A DNA stretch of 35,278 nt from NCBI GenBank assembly GCA_016208165.1, contig JACQYL010000037.1, positions 1 through 35,278 of the forward strand, written 5' to 3'. The notes beneath the pieces were generated by a model. That model was not told the DNA's origin. It did not search any database and saw nothing but the letters and a program-made list of their open reading frames with translations. A program made the position numbers and the translations under genes. This document shows positions 13,116 to 35,278 of this stretch, in pieces (the first letter of the stretch is position 1; each line of letters starts with the position of its first letter). Source of the DNA: Deltaproteobacteria bacterium. GTDB lineage: Bacteria; Desulfobacterota; Desulfarculia; JACQYL01.

Positions 13116-13422
13116 TCCGAGGGCCCCGACGTATCTTTCCCTATCCCTCTTTTCCCTCAGCACTCCTGTCTCGACCTATGGGGCTATCTATGTGGGAGTT
13201 TACTCAAGAGGCTCGTTTACCGACAAGGCGTCAACGGCCCGCAAGATCCCCATCGTCATCCGCGGGGACCCCTTGAGCCGGAACGTGTGTGAAGAGGTTT
13301 AAAGCGATTGTCCAGCCAACTATGCTATCGAAGGCGTCCGTAATTGCGTCCAATTAAATGCGCATTCGACGAGGGCCCTTGGCGACATTTCCATAAAGGT
13401 TCCCGGTCGGAAGCGCGAGACC
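13116..13422. other. Intergenic stretch, nothing recognised
   Basis: This lies between the converging yhbY and the following minus-strand gene. There is no supported gene and no clear terminator; a short frame ending at 13302 lacks a start codon and similarity. Confidence 0.4.
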
Positions 13423-14319: not shown

Positions 14320-15559
14320 GTTTCCTCCTAATATTCCTTGTCGATGTTTACCATTACCATGGGCTTGGAAGAAAAAGTAACGGTGGACAGGGCAAGGCTT
14401 TGTAAGTGTACGCGTAATATTGCCGTGATTGTCGGTTAACGACAAGCAGTTCGTCATCGTCAAAAAACAGCTTCGTCGAGCGATCTTCAGAAGAACGGTA
14501 TGACGCCATCACCGGTTCAGCGATTTTGGTGGCATGCAGTTCGGTGGGAAACAGGTCGGCGGAGCGAAGTTGCGACCGGAAGCAAAATTAGAGGAAGCCT
14601 GAATGTGTTTTGCCGGCGGCGCTTTCCGCCGCGTCTATCGCCATCACCTCCCTAATGTCCACTTCACCGCTTGTCAGTGTGGGGGCGAGCCTCACTGAAA
14701 CGATTATTCCAGCCCTGATCCGGATTTCCGAAGGTACCGCTGTTATATCCTGCGTCTCTCTTTTCTGAAACTAGTTTGAGGGTGATTTGTTGGAAATTCA
14801 CACCCGGATCTCGTCTATCCATCGCACATGTGCCAGCATGAGTGCAATTGTACTATCTTTATTTAAAATAAGCACGAAATATTTAAAAATCATGAATTCC
14901 GTGCAGATTTCAAACGGAATAGCAAATATGTGAATGAATCTGTATCGTTCGGGGGAGGCTCGAGATTCTGATTTCGAAGCCGAGTAACCGTCACACAAGA
15001 TCAACTTGAGCCAAGAGAAGATTTGCTCCGTTGGCTCAGCCTCGACCAGCCGTCATTCCGCTGTATCCGGGAAATAGTTCGGAGACCGTGGAGTCGGTGT
15101 GCAATTCAGTCGTTACACTCGTTGCAACAGCTGCTGCTGATGGGAAACCTCCGAGGTGGAATAGTTCAAACCAGACATCCCGTGGCGCTCAAAGCGATCC
15201 AAATTGTCCCTGTCCGTTCTAAGCAGAACAAACCCAGTTTTTCATAAGGATGATTCAAATCCACAAGGCGCCTCTCTTGCGATTTGTTCGGGTGGATTGC
15301 CGGACGGCGGCGACAATCCCGGACTGATCTCCGTGGTGCGTTACATCCATTTAGGTGACCGAACTGAATCAAAGTCAAGCCGTTCCTGATCCGATGAGCT
15401 CGTGCTTGCCCAGGCTAGGGTAACAGCCGCCCCAAATAGGGTGTTCACCGCATGGTCAAGGAGGGGAAACAAGGGTTATGCTCAAGAGAAGGCGATGGCC
15501 AAGTAATGGAGCCGTCCCGCCGGCTCCGGAAGTCAGAAACCCGCAAAAGGGGGTACGGA
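14320..15559. other. Long intergenic region, possible decayed ORF at 14354-14509
   Basis: No convincing gene is present in about 1.2 kb. On the minus strand 14354-14509 a 51-codon frame (MASYRSSEDRSTKLFFDDDE and onward to a TAA) has protein-like composition. It is preceded in frame by FPTELHATKIAEP back to a stop near 14590, and could be the tail of a lost gene. A small hairpin lies near 14610. No riboswitch or RNA gene was recognised upstream of the cytochrome. Confidence 0.35.
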
Positions 15560-17269
15560 ATGAAGGAAAGAGTAATGGGAAGGAACCAGGTTCGTGTGGG
15601 GATGCTGTTTGTGATTTGCTCTATTGGAGTCGTTTTTGCCTTATCCGGTCAAGCCGTTGGTGGAAGACACGGCGGTGGGGGTGGAGGAGGAGGGGGAGGC
15701 ATGATGAGTACGACCCTGAGCACCTTCCAGACCGCGGATTTTGTCGGTTCCGGCGTGTGTGCTTTGTGCCACAGCGGACTCACGGATAGTGCCGGACAAA
15801 ACGTATCCATCGACGCCCACTGGAGATCCACCATGATGGGCAACTCATCCAAAGATCCCCTGTGGCAGGCGAAGATCAGCTCGGAAATCAGTCGCAACCC
15901 GGCTCTCAAAGCGGTAATTGAAGAAAAATGCTCCCGCTGCCATATGGGTATGGCGCGCTATCAGGCGATGACGGACGGGACGGAAGTGAGCGTGCTCTCC
16001 CCCGGATTCCTGAACGCGAATCACCCCCTCCATACGGCCGCCATGGACGGCGTGTCCTGCACCCTCTGTCATCAAGTGCAGGAGGAAAATCTCGGTACGA
16101 TTGACAGTTTCACCGGTCTTTATATCATCGATACGCTCAGCTCGCCTCCATATCGCCTTGCTTTCGGTCCCTATAACAATCCTTTCAAGAACCCTATGGA
16201 GATGCACTCCGGGTTTTCGCCTACGGCCGGGACCCAGGCGATCGATTCGGCCCTTTGCGGCAGTTGTCACACCCTCTTTACACCGTCGGTGGACGCCGGT
16301 GGGAACGTCCTCGGCGAGTTCCCGGAGCAGACCACGTTTCTCGAATGGGAGCATGCAGTCCAGGGCGCCGGAGGCCTGACCGTCAAGACCTGTCAGGACT
16401 GCCATATGCCTGACGCCAACGGATCCGTGGTCATCAGCAATCGGCCGAGACGGCTTTCCCCGCGCAGTCCCTTCGGGCAGCATCATTTTGTCGGCGGGAA
16501 CGCTTTCATGGTGAATCTCCTCAAGGCGAACAGCGCTGCACTGGGTGTGACGGCAGACGCTTCGCACCTGGACGCGACCATAGCCAGGACCGATGCGCAA
16601 TTGCAGGGGAAGACCGCCACGGTTGTCATCGATTCGGCGTCCGTTGAGCAAGGCCTCCTGACGTTGAACCTAACCGTTGAAAACCGATCGGGCCATAAGT
16701 TTCCCAGCGGAATTCCGGCCAGGCGTTCTTGGCTGCACGTCACGGTGAAGGACGGGGCGGGCCGGGTCCTCTTCGAGTCGGGCGCTCCCCAAACGAATGG
16801 GAGTATCGCCGGAAACGACGCCGATGCGGACCCTGATGCGTACGAACCTCATTACGACCTCATCACCTCAGTGGACGAGGTCCAGATCTACGAGCCCATT
16901 ATGCTCGACAGCTCCGGCCGCGTCACTTATACGCTGCTTAGAGCCTATTCCTATGCGAAGGACAACCGGTTGTTGCCCGTAGGGTTTGACAAGTTGTCCG
17001 CTCCAGTGGACGTGGCCGCATGGGGCCAGGCCGCGGATGACGGGAATTTCACGGCCGGACAGGACCGGGTCACATATCAGGTGGATGTATCGGGAAGCGC
17101 CGGGCGGTTGACCGTTGTGGCCGAGCTCCTCTATCAGGCCGTGTCCTATCCGTTTGCAGAGAACTTGAGGCAGGATGGAACCGAACTGACCACCCGTTTC
17201 CTGGGACAGTATGATGTTGCCGGAAAGGCGCCCAGGCTGGTGGCCACGACCCAGGCCTTTGTTCAGTAG
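15560..17269 (+). CDS. Five-haem c-type cytochrome, exported
   Basis: This 569-residue protein is predicted to be periplasmic or outer-surface and to act in electron transfer. It has a signal peptide (about 1-33, GMLFVICSIGVVFALSG). A run of ten glycines follows, then five CxxCH haem sites: CALCH (about residue 67), CSRCH (124), CTLCH (167), CGSCH (233) and CQDCH (278). The order and spacing resemble the cytochrome c554-like multihaem group. Residues 320-569 have no haem sites and look like a beta-rich domain (LTLNLTVENRSGHKFPSGIP). I chose ATG 15560 because it lies just before the signal peptide with a GGGGG stretch upstream; ATG 15575 (AAGGAAAG upstream) is equally possible, and the open frame extends to 15452. 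It stands alone. Confidence 0.88.
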   Translation: MKERVMGRNQVRVGMLFVICSIGVVFALSGQAVGGRHGGGGGGGGGGMMSTTLSTFQTADFVGSGVCALCHSGLTDSAGQNVSIDAHWRSTMMGNSSKDPLWQAKISSEISRNPALKAVIEEKCSRCHMGMARYQAMTDGTEVSVLSPGFLNANHPLHTAAMDGVSCTLCHQVQEENLGTIDSFTGLYIIDTLSSPPYRLAFGPYNNPFKNPMEMHSGFSPTAGTQAIDSALCGSCHTLFTPSVDAGGNVLGEFPEQTTFLEWEHAVQGAGGLTVKTCQDCHMPDANGSVVISNRPRRLSPRSPFGQHHFVGGNAFMVNLLKANSAALGVTADASHLDATIARTDAQLQGKTATVVIDSASVEQGLLTLNLTVENRSGHKFPSGIPARRSWLHVTVKDGAGRVLFESGAPQTNGSIAGNDADADPDAYEPHYDLITSVDEVQIYEPIMLDSSGRVTYTLLRAYSYAKDNRLLPVGFDKLSAPVDVAAWGQAADDGNFTAGQDRVTYQVDVSGSAGRLTVVAELLYQAVSYPFAENLRQDGTELTTRFLGQYDVAGKAPRLVATTQAFVQ

Positions 17270-23686: not shown

Positions 23687-24712
23687 TTAGTATCCCTGAC
23701 GCGCCGCCTCGACGATGGCCTTGAGATTCTCGACGGGGGTTTCCAGCGGTATGGCGCATTCGGGGCCGATGATGGAAACGCCCGCCTCGATGGCGTAGCG
23801 GGCCTGTCGGTAGACGTCTTCCGGGGAGCCTTGGAACAACACATTGGCGTTGTCGATGTTTCCCACCAGGGACATCCGGTTTCCCACTCTGCGCACGGCC
23901 TCTACGGCGTCGATCTGCTGTTCGAAATGGTAGGCGTCAAATCCCGCTTCGGCAAATAGTTCGAGGCGGTCCGCACAGTTCCCGCACACATGCAGGATCA
24001 ACGGTCCACCGATTTCCGACGTGATCATTTTGTGCAACGGAAGTAGATATTCTTGGTAATGGTGCGGCCCCACGAGGTCTCCCGTGGCGTGGTCCGCCAC
24101 TACGACCACGTCCGCTCCGGCCTGAAACTGTGCCCTGGCAAAGGCAATGGTAACGGGCGCAAGCCGATCCAGAGTGTGTTTCAGCCGATCCTTCAACTCG
24201 GGGTTCCGGCCGGATTTGCCCACGTACAACAGGAAGCGTTCGACACCGGTGAGGTGATAGGACAGTGTCCATGGACCCATGACTTTGCCTACAATGGCGG
24301 CGCGGTCACCAGCTTCCCTCCGGAGCAGGGAAAGCGCGTCCAGGACCACCCGCATGGACGGTTTCTCGAGAAGATGATCCGGTATATCGACGGGTGAAAG
24401 ATCGGGGTGGGGCGCGTCTTTGACATTGGGCATCATGTTCCGGTGACCCCAGTCCACGGTGCACCCAAGGGCGGCCGCTTCCTGTTGGACACTGAACTCC
24501 GGCATGATGGTGTCGAATCCGATGACTTCATGTCCGGCTAACGCCAGATCGGCCATGGCGCGCGGATCCAGGTGGGCTTCCGGAAATCCCGCCCCCGCGG
24601 CTTCCATGAGTCCGTGACACACAATGGAAGTGGGATTTCCCACGGGCGGACGCACGGACTTCCGCCCTCCGAATAAGGCGGCCATGACGAGATTACGCGG
24701 TGTGGGTTTCAT
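23687..24712 (-). CDS. UroD/MtaA-family corrinoid methyltransferase
   Basis: This 341-residue cytoplasmic TIM-barrel protein belongs to the uroporphyrinogen-decarboxylase-like methyltransferases (MtaA, MtbA, CmuA group), which move methyl groups between a corrinoid protein and a thiol or C1 carrier. The zinc-binding pattern of that group is visible: His241-x-Cys243 in LILHVCGNC and Cys319 in GPECAIP. ADVVVVADHATGDLVGP is the conserved acidic barrel strand, and residues lining decarboxylase substrate sites are not kept. The length is normal. The start at 24712 follows AGGAGG at modest distance. It is separated from the other methyltransferase genes by a toxin-antitoxin pair and by plus-strand genes. 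The methyl donor and acceptor cannot be deduced. Confidence 0.88.
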   Translation of the reverse strand: MKPTPRNLVMAALFGGRKSVRPPVGNPTSIVCHGLMEAAGAGFPEAHLDPRAMADLALAGHEVIGFDTIMPEFSVQQEAAALGCTVDWGHRNMMPNVKDAPHPDLSPVDIPDHLLEKPSMRVVLDALSLLRREAGDRAAIVGKVMGPWTLSYHLTGVERFLLYVGKSGRNPELKDRLKHTLDRLAPVTIAFARAQFQAGADVVVVADHATGDLVGPHHYQEYLLPLHKMITSEIGGPLILHVCGNCADRLELFAEAGFDAYHFEQQIDAVEAVRRVGNRMSLVGNIDNANVLFQGSPEDVYRQARYAIEAGVSIIGPECAIPLETPVENLKAIVEAARQGY

Positions 24713-24834
24713 TTGTTATACGGTACCTCCTAAAGGAAGACGGTATCGAATGGGCATCATAACGTCAAGTTTGCCTTCGATCAACGAAAGGCATTGACCC
24801 GAAAAGGATGAAACCTCATCGTGAGGGCGTATCG

Positions 24835-24880
24835 TTGACAAAGGACGTCGAGAGTATATATAGTGTTATATATTCTATAC
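24835..24880 (+). promoter_or_regulatory. Promoter and probable operator of VapBC pair 2
   Basis: TTGACA (24835-24840) and TATAGT (24859-24864) are 18 bases apart. The -10 lies in an AT-rich, nearly symmetrical stretch (GTATATATA, GTGT, TATATATTC, 24854-24875), a plausible autorepressor site. Confidence 0.6.
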
Positions 24881-24906
24881 AATCATAACGGGACGGGGAT
24901 GTCGGG

Positions 24907-25161
24907 ATGGCGATCAGTATTCGAAATGCACGGGCTGAACGGCTTGCACGGGAAGTGGCGGCTGAGAGCGGCGAGAACCTCACTCAGGCCATCATACATG
25001 CCCTGGAAGAACGTCTCGAACGGCTCAAGGGCCGCAGGATGGTTTCCGATACGGCTCAGGAAATTATGAAGATTTCCGAGCGGTGCAGTATGCTGCCGGA
25101 CCAGGATCCGCGCTCACCGGAAGAGATCCTGGATTACGACGACTTTGGGGTTCCGGATTAA
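24907..25161 (+). CDS. vapB: VapB-type antitoxin (PSK / Rv0623-like family)
   Basis: This 84-residue antitoxin has an N-terminal ribbon-helix-helix-like region (MAISIRNARAERLAREVAAE, then NLTQAIIHALEERLERL). It matches the PSK-type VapB family, whose members open with strand-forming I-x-I-R-N and bind DNA as dimers. The C-terminal part (45-84, acidic, ending ILDYDDFGVPD) fits toxin-masking tails of the family. Its stop shares one base with the ATG of the toxin (TAATG). A consensus-like promoter lies at 24835. The ribosome site is weak (GGGGATGTCGGG). Confidence 0.88.
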   Translation: MAISIRNARAERLAREVAAESGENLTQAIIHALEERLERLKGRRMVSDTAQEIMKISERCSMLPDQDPRSPEEILDYDDFGVPD

Positions 25162-25571
25162 TGGTTATTGACACGTCCGCGTTGGTCGCCGTTCTTCTCA
25201 GAGAAAAAGAGGCCGAGATCTTTGCGAAAGCCATTGCGAGGGACCCGAAACGCCTCATCAGTGCATTTACGGCTTTGGAGACGGGGGTGGTCATCGAAGT
25301 CAAAAAGGGCGAGGCTGGAGGCCGCGAATTCGACCTTCTAGTTCACCGGGCCGGAATTGATATCATTCCTATGAATGGAGAACAATTCCAGATTGCCAGA
25401 GTAGCCTGGAGAACATATGGAAAACGTCGTCACCCTGCAGGCTTGAATATTGGCGATTGCTGTTCGTATGCTCTGGCGAAATATGCCGGGGAAGCATTGC
25501 TGTACAAAGGAGATGATTTTTCCAAGACCGATATCCGCTCTGCAGAGTTCATTCTCTCAGGAGTGGAGTGA
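25161..25571 (+). CDS. vapC: VapC-type PIN ribonuclease toxin
   Basis: This 136-residue PIN-domain toxin has the acidic residues of the RNase site: Asp4 in MVIDTSALVAVLL, Glu40 in FTALETGVVI, Asp99 in NIGDCCSYALAK and Asp118/119 in LYKGDDFSKTD. The start ATG at 25161 overlaps the antitoxin stop; a longer frame beginning at 25083 would run inside the antitoxin and is rejected. This pair differs in antitoxin family from the one at 3.8 kb, so the two systems are not duplicates. Confidence 0.9.
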   Translation: MVIDTSALVAVLLREKEAEIFAKAIARDPKRLISAFTALETGVVIEVKKGEAGGREFDLLVHRAGIDIIPMNGEQFQIARVAWRTYGKRRHPAGLNIGDCCSYALAKYAGEALLYKGDDFSKTDIRSAEFILSGVE

Positions 25572-25839
25572 AGCTGTCCTTTTTCACCGCTGCCGTGTTT
25601 AGGCAGGTTCGAGTTCAACCGTCGCCGAGCGGGCAGAGTCAACCCGTAGCTATTATCCGGAATTCCACACGGGATGTCCTCGATAGGGGGGCCTGATTCC
25701 TTTTCTGTCGCGGCCGGCCGGGCAGGTTTTTACCATCTAGGGTCTGAAACAAGAAAGCCCAAGTAGCAGGGTCCGAACGATCCGAAAAAGATCAAACGGT
25801 TCCAATAATCCGGTTCGCGGATCGCATCGAAGGGAGGAG

Positions 25840-26175
25840 ATGGAGATGCCGTACGACCAAGATATCGACTCCCGAATAAGGAAGGCTGTTTCCGGCTGGA
25901 AAGGCGTTTCCAGCAAAAAGATGTTCGGAGGGGTGTGCCATCTGCTCAATGGAAATATGGTCGGAGGCGTGTACAAGGATTACATGATCCTCAGGCTGGG
26001 AACGGAAGAAGCGGAGCGCGCACTGAGGCGGAAGCATGTGAAGGAGTTCGACATAACGGGAAAAGCCATGAAGGGGTGGGTCATGGTGGAAAAGGAAGGG
26101 TTCATCACCGATCAGGAGCTCGGCGATTGGCTGCGCAAAGCAGAGCGGTTTGTAAAGACGCTGCCCCCCAAATGA
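25840..26175 (+). CDS. TfoX N-terminal domain protein
   Basis: This 111-residue protein is a single TfoX-N (Sxy-like) domain, with SSKKMFGGVCHLLNGNMVGG, VYKDYMILRLG and GWVMVEKEGFITDQELGDWL. The C-terminal helical domain of full-length TfoX is absent, as is usual for stand-alone members, whose function is unknown; a competence role should not be assumed. GGGAGGAG precedes the start; an ATG two codons on is also possible. The last bases overlap the start of the MtrA-like gene as ATGA, an unexpected pairing. Confidence 0.85.
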   Translation: MEMPYDQDIDSRIRKAVSGWKGVSSKKMFGGVCHLLNGNMVGGVYKDYMILRLGTEEAERALRRKHVKEFDITGKAMKGWVMVEKEGFITDQELGDWLRKAERFVKTLPPK

Positions 26176-27044
26176 AGGAACTCCGGACCCGCTTAGCAAA
26201 GGAGACCATCGTGCTGAAAGTCAAGCCTGTGGACGGATATCCGCCGGAAGAGGGTAGGTTCACCCGTGGAAATGATTATGCGCCCGTGGCCGTTTGCACG
26301 ATCCTGGATACGTTGGAGTACAAAGTGCCGCTCGATCTTCAAAGCCTGGTCATGGCCGGACTGGACGCCGGGGCCGCCATTTCCGGTATGCTTCAAACTG
26401 AAAACGTCGGTTTGGAGAAGATGATCTGCAACGTGGTGGGCAACCCCAACATCCGCTACATCGTGCTGTGCGGCAGGGAATCGGAGGGGCACTTTCCCGG
26501 AGCGACCCTTCTGTGTTTAATGAAGAACGGGGTTGATGAAGGGAAGCACATTATCGGCGCCACGGCTCCGACCCCATACCTTTATAATATACCGATGCAT
26601 CTCATTGACCGATTCAGGAATCAAATCGTGGGGGTGATCGATCTGCTCTGCAAACCCGGCGAAACGGATCTCAAAACGCCGGGCCTGAACCCAAAGACCA
26701 TCGGAAAGGCGGTCTGGTCTTGCTTTCAGGAAGCTCCGGTAGAGTTCATGGGGTATACGGTGTACGATGTGGGTGCGTATCCCGAGCCGCCGATCCATCA
26801 CAAGATCGTATACAAGGTGACTCAGCCCCAACCCGGTATGAATCCGGGGAAATCCGCTATGGATATGGGATTCATCCTGCATAAGTTCTTGCCGGGCGAC
26901 AATTGCAGGGAATGCGGTAAGCGGACCTGCCTCGCCTTCGCAGTGGCTCTGGCAAAAAGCCGGGTTCGAATTGAAGACTGCCCGCTGCTGACGGTTCCGG
27001 GGCGCGAAATGGAACGAGCGGCATTGACGAGACTCCTGGAATAG
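26172..27044 (+). CDS. MtrA-like corrinoid protein with C-terminal 4Fe-4S motif
   Basis: This 290-residue protein has two parts. Residues 20-215 match the corrinoid-binding subunit A of tetrahydromethanopterin S-methyltransferase. VCTILDTLEYKVP is followed by YIVLCGRESEGHFPGATLLC, with His107 where MtrA carries the lower cobalt ligand, then KNGVDEGKHIIGATAPTPYL. The C-terminal membrane anchor of archaeal MtrA is missing. Residues 243-272 instead carry Cys245-x2-Cys248-x4-Cys253 and Cys270 (NCRECGKRTC, then EDCP), the 4Fe-4S motif seen in the large subunit of the corrinoid iron-sulfur protein. This suggests a soluble corrinoid protein with its own reductive-activation cluster. I take ATG 26172, which overlaps the TfoX-like gene, over a long upstream frame. 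Its methyl partners are unknown. Confidence 0.87.
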   Translation: MKELRTRLAKETIVLKVKPVDGYPPEEGRFTRGNDYAPVAVCTILDTLEYKVPLDLQSLVMAGLDAGAAISGMLQTENVGLEKMICNVVGNPNIRYIVLCGRESEGHFPGATLLCLMKNGVDEGKHIIGATAPTPYLYNIPMHLIDRFRNQIVGVIDLLCKPGETDLKTPGLNPKTIGKAVWSCFQEAPVEFMGYTVYDVGAYPEPPIHHKIVYKVTQPQPGMNPGKSAMDMGFILHKFLPGDNCRECGKRTCLAFAVALAKSRVRIEDCPLLTVPGREMERAALTRLLE

Positions 27045-27086
27045 GTCTCTTGGACACAGGAAACGCGAAAAGCGTACTCCAACCTC

Positions 27087-27287
27087 ATGAAACAACCCTG
27101 TTACAGACACCGTGAACGCGAAGGAACCTATTATTGCCAGTGTGATGCCCGATACATGTGCGACGAGTGCGTTCAATGTCCGGGGCCTGATCTTCACTGT
27201 AAATTCCGCGTTTCGTGCACCATTCATTTTCTCATGGAAGAAGGAGTGCTGCCGAAAAGGAAGTCGCCGTCCGCGCGAAACGGGTGA
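27087..27287 (+). CDS. Small cysteine-rich protein
   Basis: This 66-residue protein has nine cysteines and three histidines in the first 47 positions (CYRHREREGTYYCQCDARYM, then CDECVQCPGPDLHCKFRVSC, IHF). The spacing is like a B-box/zinc-ribbon fold and is expected to bind one or two metal ions. It lies 42 bases after the MtrA-like gene and 29 bases before the DUF3786 gene on the same strand, so it is probably co-transcribed with both. I do not recognise a named family. Confidence 0.7.
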   Translation: MKQPCYRHREREGTYYCQCDARYMCDECVQCPGPDLHCKFRVSCTIHFLMEEGVLPKRKSPSARNG

Positions 27288-27316
27288 CGGGACGCGGGGA
27301 TACGGGAGGGAAAATC

Positions 27317-27919
27317 ATGAGCGATGAGCTACTGAAGATCCAACGGGAGTACATAAGACGGCGATATGATCAGCTCCCCGAAGACATGGACCAGCGCCTG
27401 CTTGCGATTAGAGAAAAGGACTCGTTTCATTTCAAGGCGTTCGGGCAACCATGCACGGTCAGTCCCGATGGGATCACCCTCGGGGGAGTGCCCATAACGG
27501 GACCGATCGGCGTTTTGATCGCTCTGTATGTGTTCCATGCCGTCAGAGATCCGGTTCAGATCGAGCCCGTCAAGTCCTTCAAACAGATCAAAGGAACTAC
27601 CCCCTACCACGGAGCTTTTTCCGCCCGCTCCGAGAAAAGCCTGATTCCCTATGTAACCGGCATCCGGCAAAACAAGGAAACCCTTCTTTCGGTTTTTGAT
27701 GGGAAAGAGAGCGAAGGGACGAAGGGAGACTCTTCTTTTATTTTGTATCCCTTGCCCAAGGTCCCCTTGCAGTATATTTTCTATTTGGCCGACGAGGAAT
27801 TCCCGGCCTCAGTCACCTGCCTTCTTGCTTCCAACGCCGAGCTGTTCATGCCTGTGGACGGACTTGCGGACGTGGGGGAATACACGGCCAAACGGATCGT
27901 GGAAATCGTAACTCGTTAG
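27317..27919 (+). CDS. DUF3786 protein
   Basis: This 200-residue protein matches the DUF3786 family as I recall it. It has a helical opening (LLKIQREYIRRRYDQLPED), then FHFKAFGQPCTVSPDGITLG, PIGVLIALYVFHA, VKSFKQIKGTTPYHGAF, a hydrophobic FILYPLPKVPLQYIFYLADE and ASNAELFMPVDGLADVGEYT. Such proteins are common in anaerobes with the Wood-Ljungdahl pathway and often lie near corrinoid or CO dehydrogenase genes; their role is unknown. ATG 27317 with GGGAGG upstream is preferred; the open frame upstream to 27215 overlaps the Cys-rich gene. It ends against a converging small gene with a 4-base overlap. Confidence 0.85.
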   Translation: MSDELLKIQREYIRRRYDQLPEDMDQRLLAIREKDSFHFKAFGQPCTVSPDGITLGGVPITGPIGVLIALYVFHAVRDPVQIEPVKSFKQIKGTTPYHGAFSARSEKSLIPYVTGIRQNKETLLSVFDGKESEGTKGDSSFILYPLPKVPLQYIFYLADEEFPASVTCLLASNAELFMPVDGLADVGEYTAKRIVEIVTR

Positions 27920-28128
27920 AATCGCTTCCATACGTACTTGCGCTTTTCCTCGTCCCATTGCCAGGTGTAATTCGCCGGGACCACCGTTCTAGAAAAGGGC
28001 GGGTCCGTTTCAGTTGCGTTGTCGTAATATTCCGTCCGAATCTCCTCCAGTACCATTCCGGCATCTTTCATACACTCAAACCGGTTACGGCTTTCCCAAC
28101 CGGTCCTATGATCGACGATCTTATACAT
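27916..28128 (-). CDS. Small hypothetical protein
   Basis: This 70-residue acidic/aromatic protein (MYKIVDHRTGWESRNRFECM, ending YTWQWDEEKRKYVWKRF) has no membrane or signal segment. Composition and the WQWDEEKRKYVWK tail look like a genuine small beta protein. The ribosome site is weak, and it converges with the DUF3786 gene, overlapping its end by four bases. Family and function are unknown. Confidence 0.55.
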   Translation of the reverse strand: MYKIVDHRTGWESRNRFECMKDAGMVLEEIRTEYYDNATETDPPFSRTVVPANYTWQWDEEKRKYVWKRF

Positions 28129-28210
28129 GCTCGTGGTTCGGGGCCGCTAAACGGTCCTCCTTCCCGGTTCTCTGTTCCAAAAGATGTATCATTGACGGTA
28201 GTTATTGATA

Positions 28211-28253
28211 CGCGCCTCCTGACCGACTCGGAATGAATCGAACAGGAGGCGCG
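28211..28253. repeat. 11-base perfect inverted repeat
   Basis: CGCGCCTCCTG (28211-28221) pairs exactly with CAGGAGGCGCG (28243-28253) over a 21-base loop. No T run follows on either strand. It lies between two minus-strand genes and may be a 3' stabiliser, a protein site or the leader of the 70-codon gene. Confidence 0.7.
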
Positions 28254-28355
28254 CCGTGCAAAGGAGTGCGAAACGATGCCGTCAAGCTTTTAGTGATCTG
28301 GGCAAAATCACCGTTCTTCACGTTGAAGTATGTCCGATACGGACTCACCAACTCC

Positions 28356-28408
28356 CGAGGGGATCCGGGAATGGTCCCGTGGTGGATGGTGACCCCTCGA
28401 GGATCCCC
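28356..28408. repeat. Two overlapping alternative hairpins
   Basis: CGAGGGG (28356-28362) can pair with CCCCTCG (28393-28399), while GGGGATCC (28359-28366) can pair with GGATCCCC (28401-28408). The left arms share bases, so the two stems exclude each other. They lie directly downstream of the methyltransferase stop at 28423. Confidence 0.5.
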
Positions 28409-28422
28409 TGTGAATACCCGTA

Positions 28423-29478
28423 CTAGTTGTAGGTCCCGTACAGTCTCGCCGCTTGGACCAGCGCCTTGAGGTTTTCCGGCTTCACATCGTGGTGCACTTC
28501 ACAACTGGCCGTTAACCAGAACTTGCCTCCGGGCATTCCGATATCCAAGTAATGCCTGACTTCTTTAATGACATCTTCAGGTGTTCCATGCACTAGGTTG
28601 TTACCGGCCTTGGAGACCGCCGGGCCGGCCGCCAGAATGACCTTGTCCCCGTATTTCTCTTTAGCCCACTTGAAATCGACCTGCTCATGGAAGGCGACGA
28701 CCGCGGGTTCGACTTTGTTGACAATGAGGTCAAAAAACGGCGTGGCGTCCTCACACTGGTGAAAGACGTAAGGGACGGGCGCAATGGCATCTCGAATCTT
28801 TCGATGATAGGGAATAACGAACTCTTCATACTGATCGGGACTGACGGCCTCGTCAATCATGGACTCGACCGTGGCGATGGCGGCGGCGCCTGCGCCGATC
28901 ATGGCTTTTGCATAGTTGATGGCCGATTCGGTGACCACCTCCAACAGGTCGTGCAGAAACTTCGGGTTTCTGACGATCTCGACAAAAAACCCTTTGTAAT
29001 GGCCGGCATATACGTCCGTGGCCGTATCCGGGGGACCTTCCACAAACCCGGCGATCCCGACGTCAGGGTATTTTCGTCTGAGTCGCTTAATGGTTTCAAG
29101 AACCACGGGCATTCGGCCGTCCTTCTCCGGATCGGCGGGTTTCAGTTTCAGTACATCTTTGGGTTCTTTGACCACCCAGTCCTTGATGAAGCCCATGCGC
29201 ATTCCGCCGCCCGTCTTCAGCGTGTAACCGACTTTCGAGCCCAGGGCTTCTCCCTCGATCCGGAAATCGCAGGGGAGGAAGAAATTGTCGAACTCATATT
29301 CGGTATACTGTCGTTCCACGGCCTGAAACAGTTTTCGGGGATGCCAGAGCGCTTCCTCCCAAGTGTAATCCAGAAATTGCAGGTCCCTTTGCAGCATGCT
29401 CTGGTAATAGAGAATCACCGGCACCCTGTCCGGTTTTTGTCCTGTAAGTGTGGCCACAACGCGTTCCAACGGCGTCAT
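28423..29478 (-). CDS. UroD/MtaA-family corrinoid methyltransferase
   Basis: This 351-residue TIM-barrel methyltransferase has a typical opening (MTPLERVVATLTGQKPDRVP) and the zinc pattern His240-x-Cys242 (VFHQCEDATPF) with Cys326 (WLTASCEVHHDVKPENLKAL). It belongs to a different branch from the gene at 23.7 kb: Gly-rich GGGMRMGFIKDW and FVEGPPDTATDVYAGHYKGF are not shared. The start at 29478 follows AGGAGG. Downstream of the PAS-LuxR gene on the same strand, it is a natural target of that regulator; the 160-base gap contains two inverted repeats. Substrate is unknown; either substrate:corrinoid or corrinoid:C1-carrier transfer is possible. Confidence 0.88.
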   Translation of the reverse strand: MTPLERVVATLTGQKPDRVPVILYYQSMLQRDLQFLDYTWEEALWHPRKLFQAVERQYTEYEFDNFFLPCDFRIEGEALGSKVGYTLKTGGGMRMGFIKDWVVKEPKDVLKLKPADPEKDGRMPVVLETIKRLRRKYPDVGIAGFVEGPPDTATDVYAGHYKGFFVEIVRNPKFLHDLLEVVTESAINYAKAMIGAGAAAIATVESMIDEAVSPDQYEEFVIPYHRKIRDAIAPVPYVFHQCEDATPFFDLIVNKVEPAVVAFHEQVDFKWAKEKYGDKVILAAGPAVSKAGNNLVHGTPEDVIKEVRHYLDIGMPGGKFWLTASCEVHHDVKPENLKALVQAARLYGTYN

Positions 29479-29544
29479 AAGCTTACCTCCTTTCCTTGGT
29501 AGGTGATGTGGTTAATAGGCATGCAACCTGGATTGACAACTTCC

Positions 29545-29612
29545 GTAGTATTCGACTACTGATTAGTTACTATACAATGAAGCAGGATGGATATGAACCC
29601 CAGAAATATCCA
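29545..29612 (-). promoter_or_regulatory. Inverted repeats upstream of the methyltransferase
   Basis: TGGATAT (29588-29594) and ATATCCA (29606-29612) form a 7-base inverted repeat with an 11-base gap. GTAGT/ACTAC (29545-29559) is a second, smaller one with a 5-base gap. Both lie 65-135 bases before the methyltransferase start and just after the LuxR-type gene, so they are candidate operators. Confidence 0.4.
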
Positions 29613-29641
29613 TACATTTTACCAGGTATTTACTGGGATTC

Positions 29642-30628
29642 TTATAGAGTAAGAAGATGAGTTCTTAGGTTGTCTCTACGCCCTTTAAGACCGAGCCTCT
29701 TACGGATATTTTCTCGGTGGAATTCAACCGTCTTCGAGGAAATGGAAAGTATCTCGGCAATTTCTTTGCTGGTAAAACCTTCCTTAACCAGCCCGGCAAT
29801 ACGGATCTCCGATGGTGTGAGGCTCAGAAATCGGGAGCTGAGTTTATGAGCGAAGGGAGAGATGATATCGTTCAGATTGGACTCAACAACCTCTATAAGG
29901 TTCTTGTATCTTTGATCCATTGCTCCGGGCTTCAGCCGGTCCAGGTACGGTTGCACCAGCTCTTTCACCTGCGAGACCACCTTTTCCTCAATTTCCCGAC
30001 GGTCTTCATCCCGCTGGCGAACGAGGACCCGTAAGGCGGCGTTGGCTTCTTCCAGTTTATGCGCTTCGCGTTCTAAATCGGCTTCACGGCGGCGCAGCGC
30101 GGCATTGGCTTCTTCCAGTTTCAGGGTCTCGAGCTGCAGTTCAGTATCGCGACGACGTAACGTGATATGCGCCTGCTTGACGTTGGTAACGTTTTCGTGG
30201 CTGACCACCAGTCCCATGGGACCTTCAAATTCGAGCCTCAGACGGGTTACCCGGATGTTGTACCAGCATTTTTCATATGGCGAGTGGCAGGGATATTCCA
30301 TAACAAACTCGCCTGATTCCCCGCTAATAACGGATCGAATGCCGGCGGCCGCCTTCCTGGCCAGAGCAAAGCCGCGCCCTTCAGCCTTGTCGCAGACGGA
30401 GAGATAATTGACCCCTACCGTATCCGGACGCATTCGGATGCCGCTCGCCCTGGCAAACTCTTTCCAGGCCCGATTTGTCTCGAGAATGAAGCCGTCTTCA
30501 TCCAGAACGGCCACTCGGGCGGACAAAGAGTCCAACGCCGTCTTGCTCCACAACAGGAGTTTTCTATCCGCCTCGATTCTGATCCGTCCGGAGTCCATGC
30601 TCTTCTTTTGGGGTCCCGGGGATACCAT
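29642..30628 (-). CDS. PAS-coiled-coil-LuxR transcription regulator
   Basis: This 328-residue protein has a PAS domain at about 30-160 (DSLSARVAVLDEDGFILETN, RAWKEFARASGI, and GLVVSHENVTNVKQA). It is followed by a coiled coil (160-225) containing a near-repeat, ALRRREADLEREAHKLEEAN. Residues 262-328 are a LuxR-type helix-turn-helix (LTPSEIRIAGLVKEGFTSKE, then SISSKTVEFHRENIRKRLGL). There is no receiver domain and no kinase. The PAS probably senses a small ligand or cofactor directly. An alternative start is ATG 30598. The position before a methyltransferase gene on the same strand suggests local control of methyl-transfer genes. A strong hairpin lies 34 bases upstream of its start. Confidence 0.88.
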   Translation of the reverse strand: MVSPGPQKKSMDSGRIRIEADRKLLLWSKTALDSLSARVAVLDEDGFILETNRAWKEFARASGIRMRPDTVGVNYLSVCDKAEGRGFALARKAAAGIRSVISGESGEFVMEYPCHSPYEKCWYNIRVTRLRLEFEGPMGLVVSHENVTNVKQAHITLRRRDTELQLETLKLEEANAALRRREADLEREAHKLEEANAALRVLVRQRDEDRREIEEKVVSQVKELVQPYLDRLKPGAMDQRYKNLIEVVESNLNDIISPFAHKLSSRFLSLTPSEIRIAGLVKEGFTSKEIAEILSISSKTVEFHRENIRKRLGLKGRRDNLRTHLLTL

Positions 30629-30661
30629 GGGGTATTGTCCTGTAGAGGTTAAAAAGGACGC

Positions 30662-30692
30662 GGCATAGCCGCCTCGACGTTGCGGCTATGCC
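30662..30692. repeat. Perfect 11-base hairpin before the LuxR-type gene
   Basis: GGCATAGCCGC (30662-30672) and GCGGCTATGCC (30682-30692) are exact reverse complements with a 9-base loop. It lies in the leader region of the regulator gene. There is no T run toward the gene; a repeat unit or leader structure is more likely than a terminator. Confidence 0.65.
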
Positions 30693-31110
30693 AAGGCGGA
30701 GCCGAGAAAGAAGTTTCTTGTGTCGGATCACATGCGGCTCCGGCCTTTCCCGGTGGTTCAGAAACGCCGGGTGTCAAGAGTATCCGTTCTATGAGTTGGA
30801 CAAAACCGGGATCACATGTTCTTTAGTCTTCAATCCGAACAACAAGCCCCTAGTGCAGGGTAATCAGTCTCCGTGTATCCGTTCAAAGGCAGGCCTTCTT
30901 TCACTTTTCCGATAGTCCTTTTGAACGGCAAGTCCGTCCCAAGCCCCAGCCACGTATCTTCTCATCCAGGTCCTGATTTCGTCACCCCCCGCAGAGGTCT
31001 GCGGGAGGTCCATAAGCGGTTTCCAAAACGACCTGGATTCCGGCTTACGCCGGAATGACGAGAAGCAAGAGGCAGTTGTGACGACTACCCTCTGCACGAA
31101 AACGTCTCTA
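30693..31110. other. Intergenic stretch with a dispersed-type repeat
   Basis: There is no supported gene between the corrinoid-protein operon and the LuxR-type gene. At 31037-31056 ATTCCGGC and GCCGGAAT flank a 4-base loop inside CCTGGATTCCGGC...GCCGGAATGACG. That form is very common as dispersed repeats in proteobacterial genomes, and its translation gives the familiar spurious FRRKPESR string on the minus strand. Confidence 0.6.
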
Positions 31111-31755
31111 TTATTTTTCTACCTCGCTGTTCGCCCACCTCAGGGCCTCTTTTTCATTATCTCCATAGAAATCGGCGCCAATCTTCTTGGCGAAATCCCA
31201 GGATATCGGACCGCCGCCGATCATGACCTTGACCCCCTCACGGGTACCTTCTTCCGAAAGTCCTTCCACGGTTCGCTTCATACTGAGCATGGTGGGCGTC
31301 ATGAGTGTGGAAAGCAGCAAAAAGTCGGGTTTTTCTTTCGCCACGGCATCCAGATAGTCTTCAACGGGAACATCTCTCCCCATATCGACACAAATGAAGC
31401 CATTGGCTTCGAGCACGGTCTTCACCAGATTTTTTCCGATGTCATGAACGTCCCCTTCGACCACGCCGCATACGATCTTAGCTTTACCTCCCGCCGCTCC
31501 GGCAGCCTTGATTTCCTCTTTCAACAGGTCGAAGGCGGCATAAAACGCATCCGAACTGATTAGCATTTGAGGCAGGTAGTATTCCTTTTTTTCATATTTC
31601 TCACTGACAATCGCCATGGCCGGAATGAGGGCTTTCTCCACCGTGGTCATGGCTGCAATGTTCTGATCCAGAGCCTTCTGCGTCAGACTGCCGGCCTCAT
31701 CCACCTTACCGAGTACAATTGAATCAATCAGTTGTTGGAAAAGCTGATCAGACAT
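31111..31755 (-). CDS. B12-binding corrinoid protein (MtaC/MtbC type)
   Basis: This 214-residue methyl carrier has an N-terminal four-helix cap (1-88, SIVLGKVDEAGSLTQKALD, IPAMAIVSEKYEKKEYYLPQ). A Rossmann-like B12 domain follows (90-214) with the cobalt-ligand motif Asp102-x-His104-x-x-Gly107 (EGDVHDIGKNLVKTVLEANG), LLLSTLMTPTM and VMIGGGPIS. All the expected motifs are intact. ATG 31755 with an AGGAAG upstream is preferred to the ATG at 31773. It is the last gene of a minus-strand operon whose earlier genes encode a UroD-type methyltransferase, the RamA-like activator and a DUF1638 protein. It should accept the methyl group from the substrate enzyme and pass it on. Confidence 0.93.
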   Translation of the reverse strand: MSDQLFQQLIDSIVLGKVDEAGSLTQKALDQNIAAMTTVEKALIPAMAIVSEKYEKKEYYLPQMLISSDAFYAAFDLLKEEIKAAGAAGGKAKIVCGVVEGDVHDIGKNLVKTVLEANGFICVDMGRDVPVEDYLDAVAKEKPDFLLLSTLMTPTMLSMKRTVEGLSEEGTREGVKVMIGGGPISWDFAKKIGADFYGDNEKEALRWANSEVEK

Positions 31756-31800
31756 AATACTTCTTCCTCCCACTATAGAGTTAAGTAGCCAGTGGTATAG

Positions 31801-32616
31801 TTACGCTTCCGCAAATGCTTCACGATCTTCTCCTTGGTTAACCTCCTTTCTTTTCGATGCCGCGAGACGCTTGGCCTCATCAAAGGATTTCCTCAAAAGC
31901 TCTAAAGTCCCTTTGACCTCATCAATGTAAAAGTTAAATCTTTGAGCGAATTCTTCCGTTTCACTACGGAATTTGTCTCGATCTCCGATTCCGGTGTCCA
32001 CCATTAAAACCCTCTTATACGCCGCCTTATCGAAGATCCACTTGACGGTTTCGAGGTCCGGCGCGTGCAATTCCTTGACGAGGAGGGTTTCCCAGTGTTT
32101 GAGCCAGCCGGGAGTGACGAACCAGGTGCCGGCCTCTTCATACAGGTGTTTCAGATAGTTCGCGGTTCCTCCCAACACCATGCACACACAGTCGTCAACT
32201 TTGCTCCCATCCTCATTCCGGGGCATCACAAGGGGGGACTTAACGTCCGATAACAAGTCTTCGATATTCAGAAGCACATTACCGCACAGCCCATACCCCA
32301 GTATGATTACGTCGCTCTTCTCGTCCAGCCGCTTGGTCTCATCCGCAACGTCTTTCTGAAGCAGTTCTTTATCCATGTGCAGTCCGACACGCAAAACGTG
32401 GGCAAGGATTTCGAATCTCCTCGATGGATCGGGAATGAACTCGGAGACGTCCTTCATCACCGTCAATCGATCACCGATTCTTCGGTTCAGGTCGGCAATG
32501 AGGTCTGCCCCCGGATCGCTTTCAACAAATGTGACTTTCTCGAGTTCCGGGTCCTGAGAGATGATAAAAGACATCTCATCCTCCAGCACCTCACAAATCA
32601 GAAGCCCTATAACCAT
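31801..32616 (-). CDS. DUF1638 protein
   Basis: This 271-residue protein of the DUF1638 family is recognised from CEVLEDEMSFII near the start, VIILGYGLCGNVLLNIE, LVMPRNEDGSKVDDCVCMVL (LP-R-x-x-D-C type), TWFVTPGW and VLMVDTGIGDRDKF. Members are typically encoded with UroD-type methyltransferases and corrinoid proteins. The conserved cysteines (in YGLCGN and DDCVC) suggest a redox or metal role, which is not demonstrated. I place the start at 32616: GGGAGG lies upstream and the ATG is eight bases after the activator stop. The open frame runs back to 32727 inside the activator gene and is rejected. Confidence 0.87.
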   Translation of the reverse strand: MVIGLLICEVLEDEMSFIISQDPELEKVTFVESDPGADLIADLNRRIGDRLTVMKDVSEFIPDPSRRFEILAHVLRVGLHMDKELLQKDVADETKRLDEKSDVIILGYGLCGNVLLNIEDLLSDVKSPLVMPRNEDGSKVDDCVCMVLGGTANYLKHLYEEAGTWFVTPGWLKHWETLLVKELHAPDLETVKWIFDKAAYKRVLMVDTGIGDRDKFRSETEEFAQRFNFYIDEVKGTLELLRKSFDEAKRLAASKRKEVNQGEDREAFAEA

Positions 32617-32623
32617 CTCCGCG

Positions 32624-34258
32624 TCACGCCTCCCTGATTCTGATGTTTTCAAACGACAACTGCATTGGGCATTCCATTTCACACCTCCGGCAAGCCGTCC
32701 CGTCGCAAAGATCGGAACGAATGGCAATCACTTCTTTGCCGTCAACGACTTCCACCCGGGCGGCTGCTTCAGGGCAATTCTCAATACATTTGCGGCACTC
32801 TTGTCCTAGACACTCCGGCGGGAAATCGAGGTTCAAATCCGTCCCGACTTTGTCGACGATCTTCAATCCCAGGGGTCCGATTTCTATGATGTCCCTGTTT
32901 GCGATTCGTATCAGTTCCGGTGCGGGGTGCGGCGTGGGAAAGGGCTGAATGTTATAAATGGCCAGCATACTGTTCATCTGCCCGGCCGGCATGCCTTCGT
33001 TCCAGAAAGCCAGTTCACAGACAAAGGCGTTCTTGAAGGCTTTGGAATCCGCGAACATAATATGCTTGGCTGTAATGGAATCGGCTACTCGTTGGAGCAA
33101 ATCAAGCAAATGGGGATTTCGAACGATTTCAGCGGCCAGCCTCAGGCTCGTATTGCCGGCCTGAACGACTTTGCGCGCCGAGTTTGGAATCAGTCCGACA
33201 TTCCTGGCTTTTAAGGGATCCACATAATATCCGGAAGCGCCGGTCATATAGACGGCATCGAGTTGCGATAATTTGGCGCCCGTCTCTTCCACGAGGGTCA
33301 TGTGTCCGGCCCGGATGGCGCCTATGGCTTTACCGGCTTCCTTGACATCCTTTTCCGTCATGTAAATGCTTTCGCTCAGGTAGACTCTGTGGTTCGGAGT
33401 ACGGATGTCGGGGGGCCCAATGATACGGGCCTCGATGCCTTCCGAAAGTGCGGCAATAACGCCGGTTCCGGTCACTCCTATGGCTTTGAGACACTGTTCT
33501 CCGCCGCGAACGATCGTTCCGTCCGTGGGCGAAACGCACACTCCCCGTCCGCTGATAAGATCGGCGCCCAATACAACGGTATCCCACGCGTTGCCATTAG
33601 GAGTAATATCGGAAATAGCACCCGGTTGAGCCAACATGCCGAAGGAGACATGTTGGCCCTCCAACGCCGGACCCGAGGCCGCGGAACCGGTCAGGATATC
33701 GCCGCCCAGTTTGATGGCCATCTCGGCATTTGTGCCGTAATCCGTCACGATGGCGAATTCGTCCCGATCCAACAATCCGGTTACATACATCATGGCCAGA
33801 GCGTCTGCGCCGATTTCATGTTTTACGGCCGGTGGGACGAAAAGCTCCGCATCGTCGGGCAATTCCAGTCCAAAGTCCACTGCCTTGATGACTCTCGCCG
33901 GTCTCTTAATGGGCTCCGTGATGCCCAGTTTCTTTAGTTTACGCTTGCCTGCAAAGGCCAAATCTCGAAATTCCATCTTTTGAAAAAGGGAGAGCTGAAT
34001 GGGATTCCCGCAAATGGCCACTCTCCGGACTTCGTTCAGGTCGACGGGCAGTGTGTGAATTACCCTGTGTACCGCATTAAGGATCAGTTTGTGGGTGATG
34101 TCCTGTCCCAACTCCAAACAGAAATGGAGGTGGTCCATCACGTTGGCGCCCGGCAGAGGATGACGGGTGGATATCGAGGTGACGATCACTTTTCCGTCGG
34201 CGTCGATCGCTTGGGCCCGAAAACCGCTTGTGCCGAGGTCTAATGCGAGACTGATCAT
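32624..34258 (-). CDS. RamA-like ASKHA ATPase, corrinoid activation protein
   Basis: This 544-residue protein would reduce inactive Co(II) corrinoid to Co(I) with ATP hydrolysis. The ASKHA fold is shown by DLGTSGFRAQAID (residues 6-18, phosphate loop 1), DYGTNAEMAIKLGGD (loop 2), GVTGTGVIAALSEGIEARI and AVYMTGASGYYVD. The C-terminal region carries two CX4CX2CX3CP motifs (CLGQECRKCIENCP and CDGTACRRCEMECP), two 4Fe-4S clusters placed as in methanogen RamA. The bacterial RACo type instead has an N-terminal 2Fe-2S domain, which is absent here. The start at 34258 overlaps the upstream methyltransferase by ATGA; a longer frame to 34336 is rejected. Its neighbours are the corrinoid protein and DUF1638 gene it most probably serves. 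Confidence 0.92.
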   Translation of the reverse strand: MISLALDLGTSGFRAQAIDADGKVIVTSISTRHPLPGANVMDHLHFCLELGQDITHKLILNAVHRVIHTLPVDLNEVRRVAICGNPIQLSLFQKMEFRDLAFAGKRKLKKLGITEPIKRPARVIKAVDFGLELPDDAELFVPPAVKHEIGADALAMMYVTGLLDRDEFAIVTDYGTNAEMAIKLGGDILTGSAASGPALEGQHVSFGMLAQPGAISDITPNGNAWDTVVLGADLISGRGVCVSPTDGTIVRGGEQCLKAIGVTGTGVIAALSEGIEARIIGPPDIRTPNHRVYLSESIYMTEKDVKEAGKAIGAIRAGHMTLVEETGAKLSQLDAVYMTGASGYYVDPLKARNVGLIPNSARKVVQAGNTSLRLAAEIVRNPHLLDLLQRVADSITAKHIMFADSKAFKNAFVCELAFWNEGMPAGQMNSMLAIYNIQPFPTPHPAPELIRIANRDIIEIGPLGLKIVDKVGTDLNLDFPPECLGQECRKCIENCPEAAARVEVVDGKEVIAIRSDLCDGTACRRCEMECPMQLSFENIRIREA

Positions 34259-35278
34259 GTCTTCGCCCCGTATTTTTTCCCCGCCTCGACCATGGCCTTC
34301 AGATTGGCCGTGGGAACCACTGAAGGAATGCCGCAACTGGTTGTCAGGAGATCGACTCTCTTATCGATGCAGGTCTTCACGGCCGCTTCCACATCCGGTG
34401 GATCCCCAAAAAGCAGGACCGTGTTTACATCCACATTGCCGCAAACGGCTGTGTTTTCACCCACTTTTCCCTTAGCTTCTGCGATGTCGACCGAAGAGTC
34501 GATGGAGATGCCCGAGGTTACTTCCGACATGTGCGCCAGTATCGAGTGCGCCTTACCGCAGATGTGCAGAATGGATCTTATGGGAATCTTATCGCAGATG
34601 TCTTTCGTATAGGGCTTGGCATACTTTTCGAACTGGAGGGGGCTGATCAAATCGGGACTGGCGGTGGCGTCTGCTATGACGATGCAGTCGGATCCTGCTT
34701 CGGCCTGAGCCAGAGCAAAATTCAAACAGGCTTTATGGGCGCGCTCGATCACATTCACGCAGCATTCGGGCTTGCGCATGAGTTCTCGCATGAAGGCGTC
34801 CACGCCACGGACCTGGCCCGCTACCATGAACGGACCCACAACCAGTGAAAAAATGGGGATGGTGTCGGGAACCATCTTCTTCAGAATCTTGATGGCCTTG
34901 AGAATGACCGGCATGCGGCCGTCTTTGTAAGGATCCGGGTCTATTACATTCTCGAAGTCGTCCGGACCCGTCATGGGAGGGGTTTTAACGGGGGGTTGAA
35001 TGTCCAGGCCTTTGTTGGAACCCGCAGCGAAGTTAAGCACACATCCCATGGCCTCCGATTCCATGTTGATGTCGAACGGGACGCGAACACTCTCAAAGCC
35101 GATAACTTTGTACGCTTCGTAAGCCAGAGCAGCCATCAGCTCCGGGTCGGAGTGGGCTTGAGGCCAGTAAGCGTTGCAAGACTTCATCAGCTCCACCGTT
35201 CCCGTCTGTAAAGGCTGGGCTACAGGTATCCGATCGACTGGCTGGCGGTCTAGAGTAGCGAACAATCTCTCCTTCGGC
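34255..35278 (-). CDS. UroD/MtaA-family methyltransferase, 5' end outside window
   Basis: At least 340 residues of a TIM-barrel methyltransferase are present, with the zinc pattern His234-x-Cys236 (SILHICGKAH) and Cys311 (LTTSCGIPSVVP), numbered from the TTG at 35265. That TTG is not the true start: the frame continues upstream as PKERLFATLDRQPVDRIPV, the usual T-P-x-E-R opening, so the start codon lies a few bases beyond the window edge. CIVIADATASPDLISP is the acidic barrel strand. It heads or precedes the operon with the activator (4-base overlap), DUF1638 protein and corrinoid protein, and is the best candidate for the enzyme working directly with that corrinoid protein. Confidence 0.9.
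   Translation of the reverse strand, partial: PKERLFATLDRQPVDRIPVAQPLQTGTVELMKSCNAYWPQAHSDPELMAALAYEAYKVIGFESVRVPFDINMESEAMGCVLNFAAGSNKGLDIQPPVKTPPMTGPDDFENVIDPDPYKDGRMPVILKAIKILKKMVPDTIPIFSLVVGPFMVAGQVRGVDAFMRELMRKPECCVNVIERAHKACLNFALAQAEAGSDCIVIADATASPDLISPLQFEKYAKPYTKDICDKIPIRSILHICGKAHSILAHMSEVTSGISIDSSVDIAEAKGKVGENTAVCGNVDVNTVLLFGDPPDVEAAVKTCIDKRVDLLTTSCGIPSVVPTANLKAMVEAGKKYGAKT

Follow-up and report, generated by a model that had tools for sequence, protein, structure and literature searches.

How a bacterium might run a corrinoid methyl-transfer pathway with methyltransferases of the UroD type only is the question raised by the window analysed here, that is, the whole 35,278-base contig JACQYL010000037.1 (C37) of a Desulfobacterota draft genome (5.69 Mb in 142 contigs, 95.5% complete), whose right edge is an assembly break. 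A preliminary description of this DNA had proposed that three UroD enzymes of different branches, an MtaC-like corrinoid protein, a RamA-like activator and a DUF1638 protein, found at 23687-35278 without an MttB-type gene, form one locus with a separate UroD enzyme for each half reaction. A Pfam scan of 22 window proteins, with the curated NCBIfam cut-offs applied to the methyl-transfer genes, bore out this gene content and gave no MttB/MtaB-type match among the 22 proteins. The unit itself is smaller than first proposed and consists of the five genes UroD3-RamA-DUF1638-corrinoid-UroD2 (28423-35277, minus strand; Table 1). In our reading, to which we give a probability of roughly 55% on the sequence evidence, these genes would form a dedicated methyl-transfer module, with UroD2 on the donor side, UroD3 on the thiol side and a soft donor of the S/Se type.

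The five-gene module

At one end of the module UroD3, which is truncated by the contig end and lacks a few N-terminal codons, overlaps RamA by 4 bp (the stop of the former and the start of the latter share ATGA), and 7 bp separate the RamA stop from the start of the DUF1638 gene. A 482-bp gap lies between the corrinoid gene and the regulator, UroD2 standing 1.63 kb from the corrinoid gene; the regulator can be counted as a member of the unit by position only. A short palindromic repeat, CATTCCGG...CCGGAATCC, was observed in this gap at about 31035-31057. Because the order recurs, five genes out of five, in a Thermoleophilia genome and the junctions are tight, the module is not a chance arrangement.

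Table 1. Genes of the module and the genes adjoining it in the window
Feature	Position	Strand	Evidence or remark
UroD3 (P0003), MtaA/MtbA-like methyltransferase	34255-35277	-	PF01208 2.7e-76; HIC...C zinc motif
RamA-type corrinoid reductive activase (P0006), archaeal-type	32624-34258	-	TIGR04270 685 bits, cut-off 500
DUF1638 protein (P0005), candidate accessory protein of corrinoid activation	31801-32616	-	PF07796 1.1e-39
MtaC/MtbC-like corrinoid protein (P0004), DxHxxG motif	31111-31755	-	PF02607 and PF02310
PAS-LuxR regulator, between corrinoid gene and UroD2	29642-30628	-	PF00196, PF08448
UroD2 (P0002), proposed methyl-donor:corrinoid methyltransferase	28423-29478	-	PF01208 2.4e-56
DUF3786 protein	27215-27919	+	After the MtrA-FeS fusion
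MtrA-domain protein fused to AcsC-type FeS domain	25935-27044	+	Pfam/NCBIfam
UroD1 (P0001), separate MtaA/CmuA-family gene	23687-24712	-	PF01208; TIGR01463 256.4 bits, cut-off 235.4

Family placement and zinc site

The three window UroDs match PF01208 with E-values that span 2.4e-56 to 2.7e-76, and finer profiles tell them apart. UroD3 is a member of the MtaA/CmuA subfamily (TIGR01463, 299.6 bits, cut-off 235.4), and it reaches neither the MtaA equivalog NF040654 (314.7 bits, cut-off 400) nor the MtbA equivalog NF041608 (268.0 bits, cut-off 600). UroD2 falls outside the subfamily (142.5 bits) and likewise remains under both equivalog cut-offs (110.2 and 123.1 bits, respectively). The corrinoid protein scores 196 bits with TIGR02370, under the cut-off of 215, and the bacterial-type activase encoded on contig C126 of the same genome gives only 65 bits against the window RamA.

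A UroD tree was built with 100 representatives of 165 distinct sequences, matches shorter than 270 residues being dropped. UroD3 and UroD1 are placed inside a 62-row clade of MtaA/MtbA-type coenzyme M (CoM) methyltransferases (support 99/99), together with MtaA of Methanosarcina mazei (4AY7), an MtbA identified by NCBIfam (619 bits, cut-off 600) and, in the same part, MtaA equivalogs. UroD2 stands outside this clade, in agreement with the proposal that different branches are present, and forms a 100/100 group with sequences from the Thermoleophilia genome and from a Methanomassiliicoccales metagenome-assembled genome (MAG). UroD3 and its three bacterial orthologs make up a 100/100 clade, whose nearest archaeal neighbours are weakly resolved (89/51). 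In a corrinoid tree of 61 rows, which include the window gene itself (as L047), exactly the partners of UroD2 are grouped (SH-aLRT 97).

The His-x-Cys...Cys motif is kept in all three window UroDs, and the UroD2 ligands (H240-x-C242...C326) are invariant in four of four sequences and align with the MtaA site. For both UroD3 and UroD2 the closest solved structure is MtaA (4AY7/4AY8), the UroD2 profile scoring 111 bits against it and 28 bits against the haloalkane enzyme CdmB (9RUI). The predicted structure of UroD2, obtained with three sequences, is poor (mean pLDDT 60.9), and the fold search confirms no more than the UroD/MtaA fold. According to the available part of PMC10418091, His-Cys-Cys sites go with sulfur or selenium substrates, whereas the O-enzymes replace one or both cysteines. 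Since all three UroDs retain the motif, the sequences favour an S- or Se-methyl donor over aromatic methyl ethers, and the aromatic methyl ether or amine donor suggested in the preliminary description is disfavoured.

Relatives and conserved gene order

An MtaA/UroD3 alignment served to search the genome_contigs collection for relatives of UroD3, and of the 145 obtained the best 80 were kept; the scan used two short peptide patterns, so relatives without both are missed, and the window's own genome was possibly left out. Among these best 80, more than 45% identity is found in three MAGs only, namely Thermoleophilia FR_37 (G099, 64%), Bacillota SKS1.bin126 (G098, 54%) and Bacillota BP4.bin80 (G100, 49%), while the remaining 77 are archaeal and at most 43% identical. 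Apart from one 41% fragment over 125 residues, no UroD3 ortholog above 34% appeared among the matches listed for the genomes of 98 relatives. The best other UroD3 match in a search of 395 genomes of the same phylum was 39%, and a search of 398 Bacillota genomes gave no further UroD3 ortholog above 39%. As for UroD2, FR_37 alone reached E <= 1e-60 among 396 genomes of its phylum, and orthologs of at least 43% identity were found in three of the 21 genomes searched: FR_37 (64%) and two methanogen-like archaeal MAGs, G1242 and G1244 (43-46%), in both of which a corrinoid gene immediately precedes UroD2.

FR_37 keeps the same order throughout, with identities of 64% (UroD3), 58% (RamA), 50% (DUF1638), 67% (corrinoid) and 64% (UroD2). 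In SKS1.bin126, at a contig end, a corrinoid gene is followed by another UroD, a response regulator, UroD3 and RamA, and in BP4.bin80 UroD3 adjoins an NMT1-type ABC transporter. A DUF1638 gene directly follows a UroD3-like gene in three Methanomassiliicoccales MAGs (L104, L117, L120). No MttB/MtaB-type gene was found upstream in the two orthologous loci scanned with Pfam (SKS1.bin126 and FR_37). The module is real and rare, and as it is scattered over three phyla it has probably moved horizontally.

Proposed mechanism

UroD2 would take the methyl group from a soft donor (a thioether, methylthiol or methylselenide) at its His-Cys-Cys zinc site and would methylate the Co(I) of the corrinoid protein. 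RamA, probably with the help of the DUF1638 protein, would return Co(II) to Co(I), and both proteins have been tied to corrinoid reactivation by genetics, as the consulted part of PMC5764234 reports. UroD3, being of MtaA/MtbA grade, would exchange the methyl group between a thiol and the corrinoid: it would either pass it onward to a thiol acceptor, which is the MT2 role of its methanogen relatives, or load the corrinoid with a methyl group drawn from a second methylated thiol. Transfer to tetrahydrofolate could moreover rely on proteins encoded in trans, as genes for MtrH (on C126) and for a pterin-binding protein (on contig C24) are present in the same genome. The pattern fits UroD2 as the methyl-donor enzyme and UroD3 as the thiol-side enzyme, and with it the earlier idea of a UroD-only system with one branch for each half reaction. 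The role given to UroD2 is supported by the recurrence of the corrinoid-UroD2 pair in the two archaeal MAGs, UroD2 being inherited together with the corrinoid gene in the window, in Thermoleophilia and in these archaea.

Several points weigh against this scheme. The five-gene order is known from two genomes only, and in FR_37 the UroD3 frame seems broken near the C-terminus (a 286-aa open reading frame, the match reaching residue 336), which may be due to sequencing error or decay. Both Bacillota genomes hold UroD3 without a UroD2 ortholog, so that the two are separable. In the window, the 482-bp gap and the regulator intervene between UroD2 and the corrinoid gene, and in the tree UroD2 sits on a long branch, with a poorly supported deeper placement (44/86).

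Alternative explanations

A tentative alternative, which we consider possible but less likely, places both UroDs on the donor side, where they would serve two different methylated compounds, the sole acceptor being tetrahydrofolate through an MtrH-type protein, with no thiol acceptor. CoM is not generally known as a methyl acceptor in bacteria, which counts in its favour, as do the MtrH or pterin-binding gene and the methylenetetrahydrofolate reductase (MTHFR) gene near UroD3 in SKS1.bin126 and FR_37, and the MtrH that accompanies other UroD-corrinoid clusters (C126 of the same genome, G801 and G935). Nevertheless, no MtrH or pterin-binding gene was found by Pfam among the scanned window proteins, and the known acceptor for enzymes of the MtaA/MtbA grade of UroD3 is a thiol. 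If that thiol were homocysteine, the module would be a variant of the split corrinoid-dependent methionine synthase, with RamA and DUF1638 reactivating the corrinoid as in Phaeobacter. That synthase requires RamA-like and DUF1638 genes (PMC5764234), and the coupling of a donor to methionine is known for glycine betaine (PMC12478193, in the portion available). On the other hand, the Pfam scan of window proteins gave no match to a homocysteine-binding domain, and no description of UroD-type homocysteine enzymes working with corrinoid proteins was found in the literature examined; such a variant is very unlikely.

The arrangement also resembles the type 1 mlp gene clusters of Kountz & Balskus, proposed here as a reading in which methyl-selenide or methyl-sulfide would be salvaged. 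As in those clusters (PMC10418091, in the sections available), at least two UroD methyltransferases, a corrinoid protein and a Ram lie on one strand, with gaps under 2 kb and His-Cys-Cys sites. The scanned proteins to the left of the module include no H4folate methylase within 20 kb, and the right side lies beyond the contig end. The comparison was made by the published criteria, and the differences render this assignment unlikely: the activase is of the RamA type (TIGR04270) and not bacterial-type as in the published C. ljungdahlii cluster, a DUF1638 gene is present, UroD2 is outside the MtaA/CmuA cut-off, UroD3 groups with archaeal MtbA/MtaA sequences, and the orthologous loci, tied to MtrH/MTHFR and microcompartment genes, have MtrH or pterin-binding genes within 20 kb, which the criteria exclude. 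The label Mlp2 was rejected for a 13-row UroD clade, since MtrH is present by Pfam in its Bacillota cluster L222 and in that on C126, and a gene judged MtrH-like from the sequence start only occurs in its Bacillota clusters L227 and L223. Finally, the O-demethylation of a methoxylated aromatic or the dehalogenation of a haloalkane, as in the Odm, Vdm, Mto and Cdm systems, would employ the same fold in its MT1 enzyme; MtoB has been shown to be an O-demethylase (PMC8630106), and CdmB has been placed in the UroD superfamily with the O-demethylases MtvB, OdmB, VdmB and MtoB (PMC13222342), both as far as the accessible text goes. This chemistry is nonetheless quite unlikely for the module, given the far lower score of UroD2 against CdmB than against MtaA and the retention of the complete ligand set, CdmB being zinc-free.

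Microcompartment genes beside the UroD3 orthologs

Of the three UroD3 orthologs in other genomes, two stand amid genes for bacterial microcompartment (BMC) shell proteins, a PduP/EutE-type aldehyde dehydrogenase, a PanB-like protein and AOR, a link which the preliminary description overlooked. In SKS1.bin126 and FR_37, BMC-H, BMC-P and the core enzyme share one locus, and the genes common to both loci are 40-68% identical (corrinoid 37%). In FR_37, the genes immediately preceding UroD3 encode a 212-aa protein that matches BMC weakly (19.8 bits, under the cut-off), BMC-H, BMC-P (PF03319), the aldehyde dehydrogenase and BMC-T; past an insertion sequence element there are PanB-like, pterin-binding, FTCD_C and AOR genes, and upstream on the opposite strand lies a gene 41% identical to the SKS1.bin126 MTHFR. 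The dehydrogenase matches PRK15398 (611 bits, cut-off 403), which we take to be the PduP/EutE subfamily. In SKS1.bin126, a single strand bears MtrH, BMC-T-like, BMC-H, BMC-P, aldehyde dehydrogenase, BMC-T, PanB, MTHFR and AOR genes, continuing with a second BMC-T-like and BMC-H pair, corrinoid, UroD, response regulator, UroD3 and RamA.

Two observations speak against a general link: BP4.bin80 has no compartment genes in its genome, and no extra terminal peptide, which shell-targeted enzymes are expected to carry, was obvious by eye on the window UroDs or the corrinoid protein. The window genome does possess shell genes, on contigs C133 and C93 only and none on C37; since C37 ends exactly beside UroD3, any shell genes flanking UroD3 in this genome would lie beyond the contig end. 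C133 (L187/L201, 58-72 kb) holds a PDU-type operon with diol dehydratase and reactivase, and C93 (L186) a BMC-T and PduS-like gene, an NMT1-type ABC transporter and an AOR_N protein. The PDU-type shell proteins and aldehyde dehydrogenase of this genome share 34-71% identity with their counterparts near UroD3 in SKS1.bin126 and FR_37. A join of C37 to C133 or C93 is not claimed, the contig end not being repeated elsewhere in the genome, and no end words of 20-31 bases were shared between contigs in the stretches compared.

It is a doubtful extension of the proposed mechanism, offered with caution, that the module serves as the methyl-transfer front end of an uncatalogued microcompartment and that the window genome carries the same system across the assembly gap. 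The donor methyl would then pass through UroD and corrinoid to tetrahydrofolate, MTHFR would oxidise it to methylene-tetrahydrofolate, and the PanB-like enzyme would release or transfer that carbon, while the shell would confine a reactive aldehyde, which might be formaldehyde or the demethylated donor and which the CoA-acylating aldehyde dehydrogenase and AOR would oxidise. No description of a UroD/corrinoid microcompartment was found in the titles and abstracts of the literature searched, and the main text of the 2021 BMC catalogue (PMC8217296) contains none of the terms methyltransferase, folate, corrin, B12, pantoate and ferredoxin; such a type may be listed in its supplements under an unknown-function label.

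Comparison with known systems

UroD-only corrinoid systems are already known (Mts, Mtp, Cmu, the O-demethylases and the mlp clusters), and the module differs from them as a variant. The methylthiol and methylmercaptopropionate:CoM systems of Methanosarcina (MtsA/MtsB and MtpCAP) also act on methylated thiols by means of a CoM methyltransferase and its corrinoid partner (PMC7374477, as accessible), MtsA belonging to the UroD-type SCMTs (PMC10418091), whereas the bacterial operon of the window combines UroDs from two separate branches with RamA and DUF1638. The methanol and methylamine systems (MtaABC, MtbA) have relatives of UroD3 in MtaA/MtbA and of the corrinoid protein in MtaC/MtbC, but no gene of the MtaB or MttB type was found in the window locus. 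In turn, the SKS1.bin126 and FR_37 loci share BMC-H, BMC-P, BMC-T and the PduP/EutE-subfamily dehydrogenase with the PDU/EUT-type metabolosomes, and differ from these in carrying corrinoid methyltransferase, PanB-like and AOR genes (MTHFR being adjacent in SKS1.bin126 and nearby on the other strand in FR_37).

Anaerobes contain many UroD-family proteins, most of which have no assigned function. In this context, the corrinoid-UroD2 pair, common to bacteria and methanogen-like archaea, offers a small expressible system for the donor specificity of a new UroD branch. If functional, the linkage of UroD3, RamA and corrinoid to shell, CoA-acylating aldehyde dehydrogenase, PanB, MTHFR and AOR genes in two phyla would extend the known compartment chemistry to methyl-group metabolism.

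UroD1 and other genes

The grouping of the three UroDs into one locus was rejected, UroD1 being of a different lineage and cut off from UroD2 by two plus-strand genes; the preliminary interpretation as a whole is partly supported. UroD1 reaches neither equivalog cut-off (MtaA 260.5 bits, MtbA 189.3 bits; 400 and 600, respectively). Strong relatives were found in G069 (468 bits), G081 (538) and G060 (444), whose clade is joined by G040 in the tree, and the neighbours scanned at two such loci include TRAP transporters, branched-chain-type (BCAA) permeases, UroD-corrinoid fusions and a LarA-like protein. Next to UroD1, the MtrA-FeS fusion represents a corrinoid protein like that of the tetrahydromethanopterin (H4MPT) methyltransferase in a bacterium.

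Further to the left, the window encodes a protein whose TIR-domain match is weak and under the Pfam cut-off, along with a DUF6384 protein (1743-2858 and 6208-7152). A 605-aa protein (15452-17269, plus strand) matches multihaem cytochromes (MtrC/MtrF-like, cytochrome c3) weakly, with scores under the cut-offs. Elsewhere in the draft genome, one MttB gene occurs (C24:96013-97407), and its surroundings (L003, 88-106 kb) hold its own corrinoid, pterin-binding, activase-like and DUF1638 genes. On contig C127 (L083, 6393-7599, minus strand) a UroD gene is split across two reading frames, by a frameshift or a sequencing error. On C126 (L079), from 12272-13411 onward, a UroD gene has an in-frame TGA at the third zinc-ligand cysteine, after which the conserved frame continues, and the same TGA is seen in its G081 relative (L095); these sequences suggest that the gene, which belongs to an MtrH-UroD-corrinoid-activase cluster, encodes a selenocysteine UroD.

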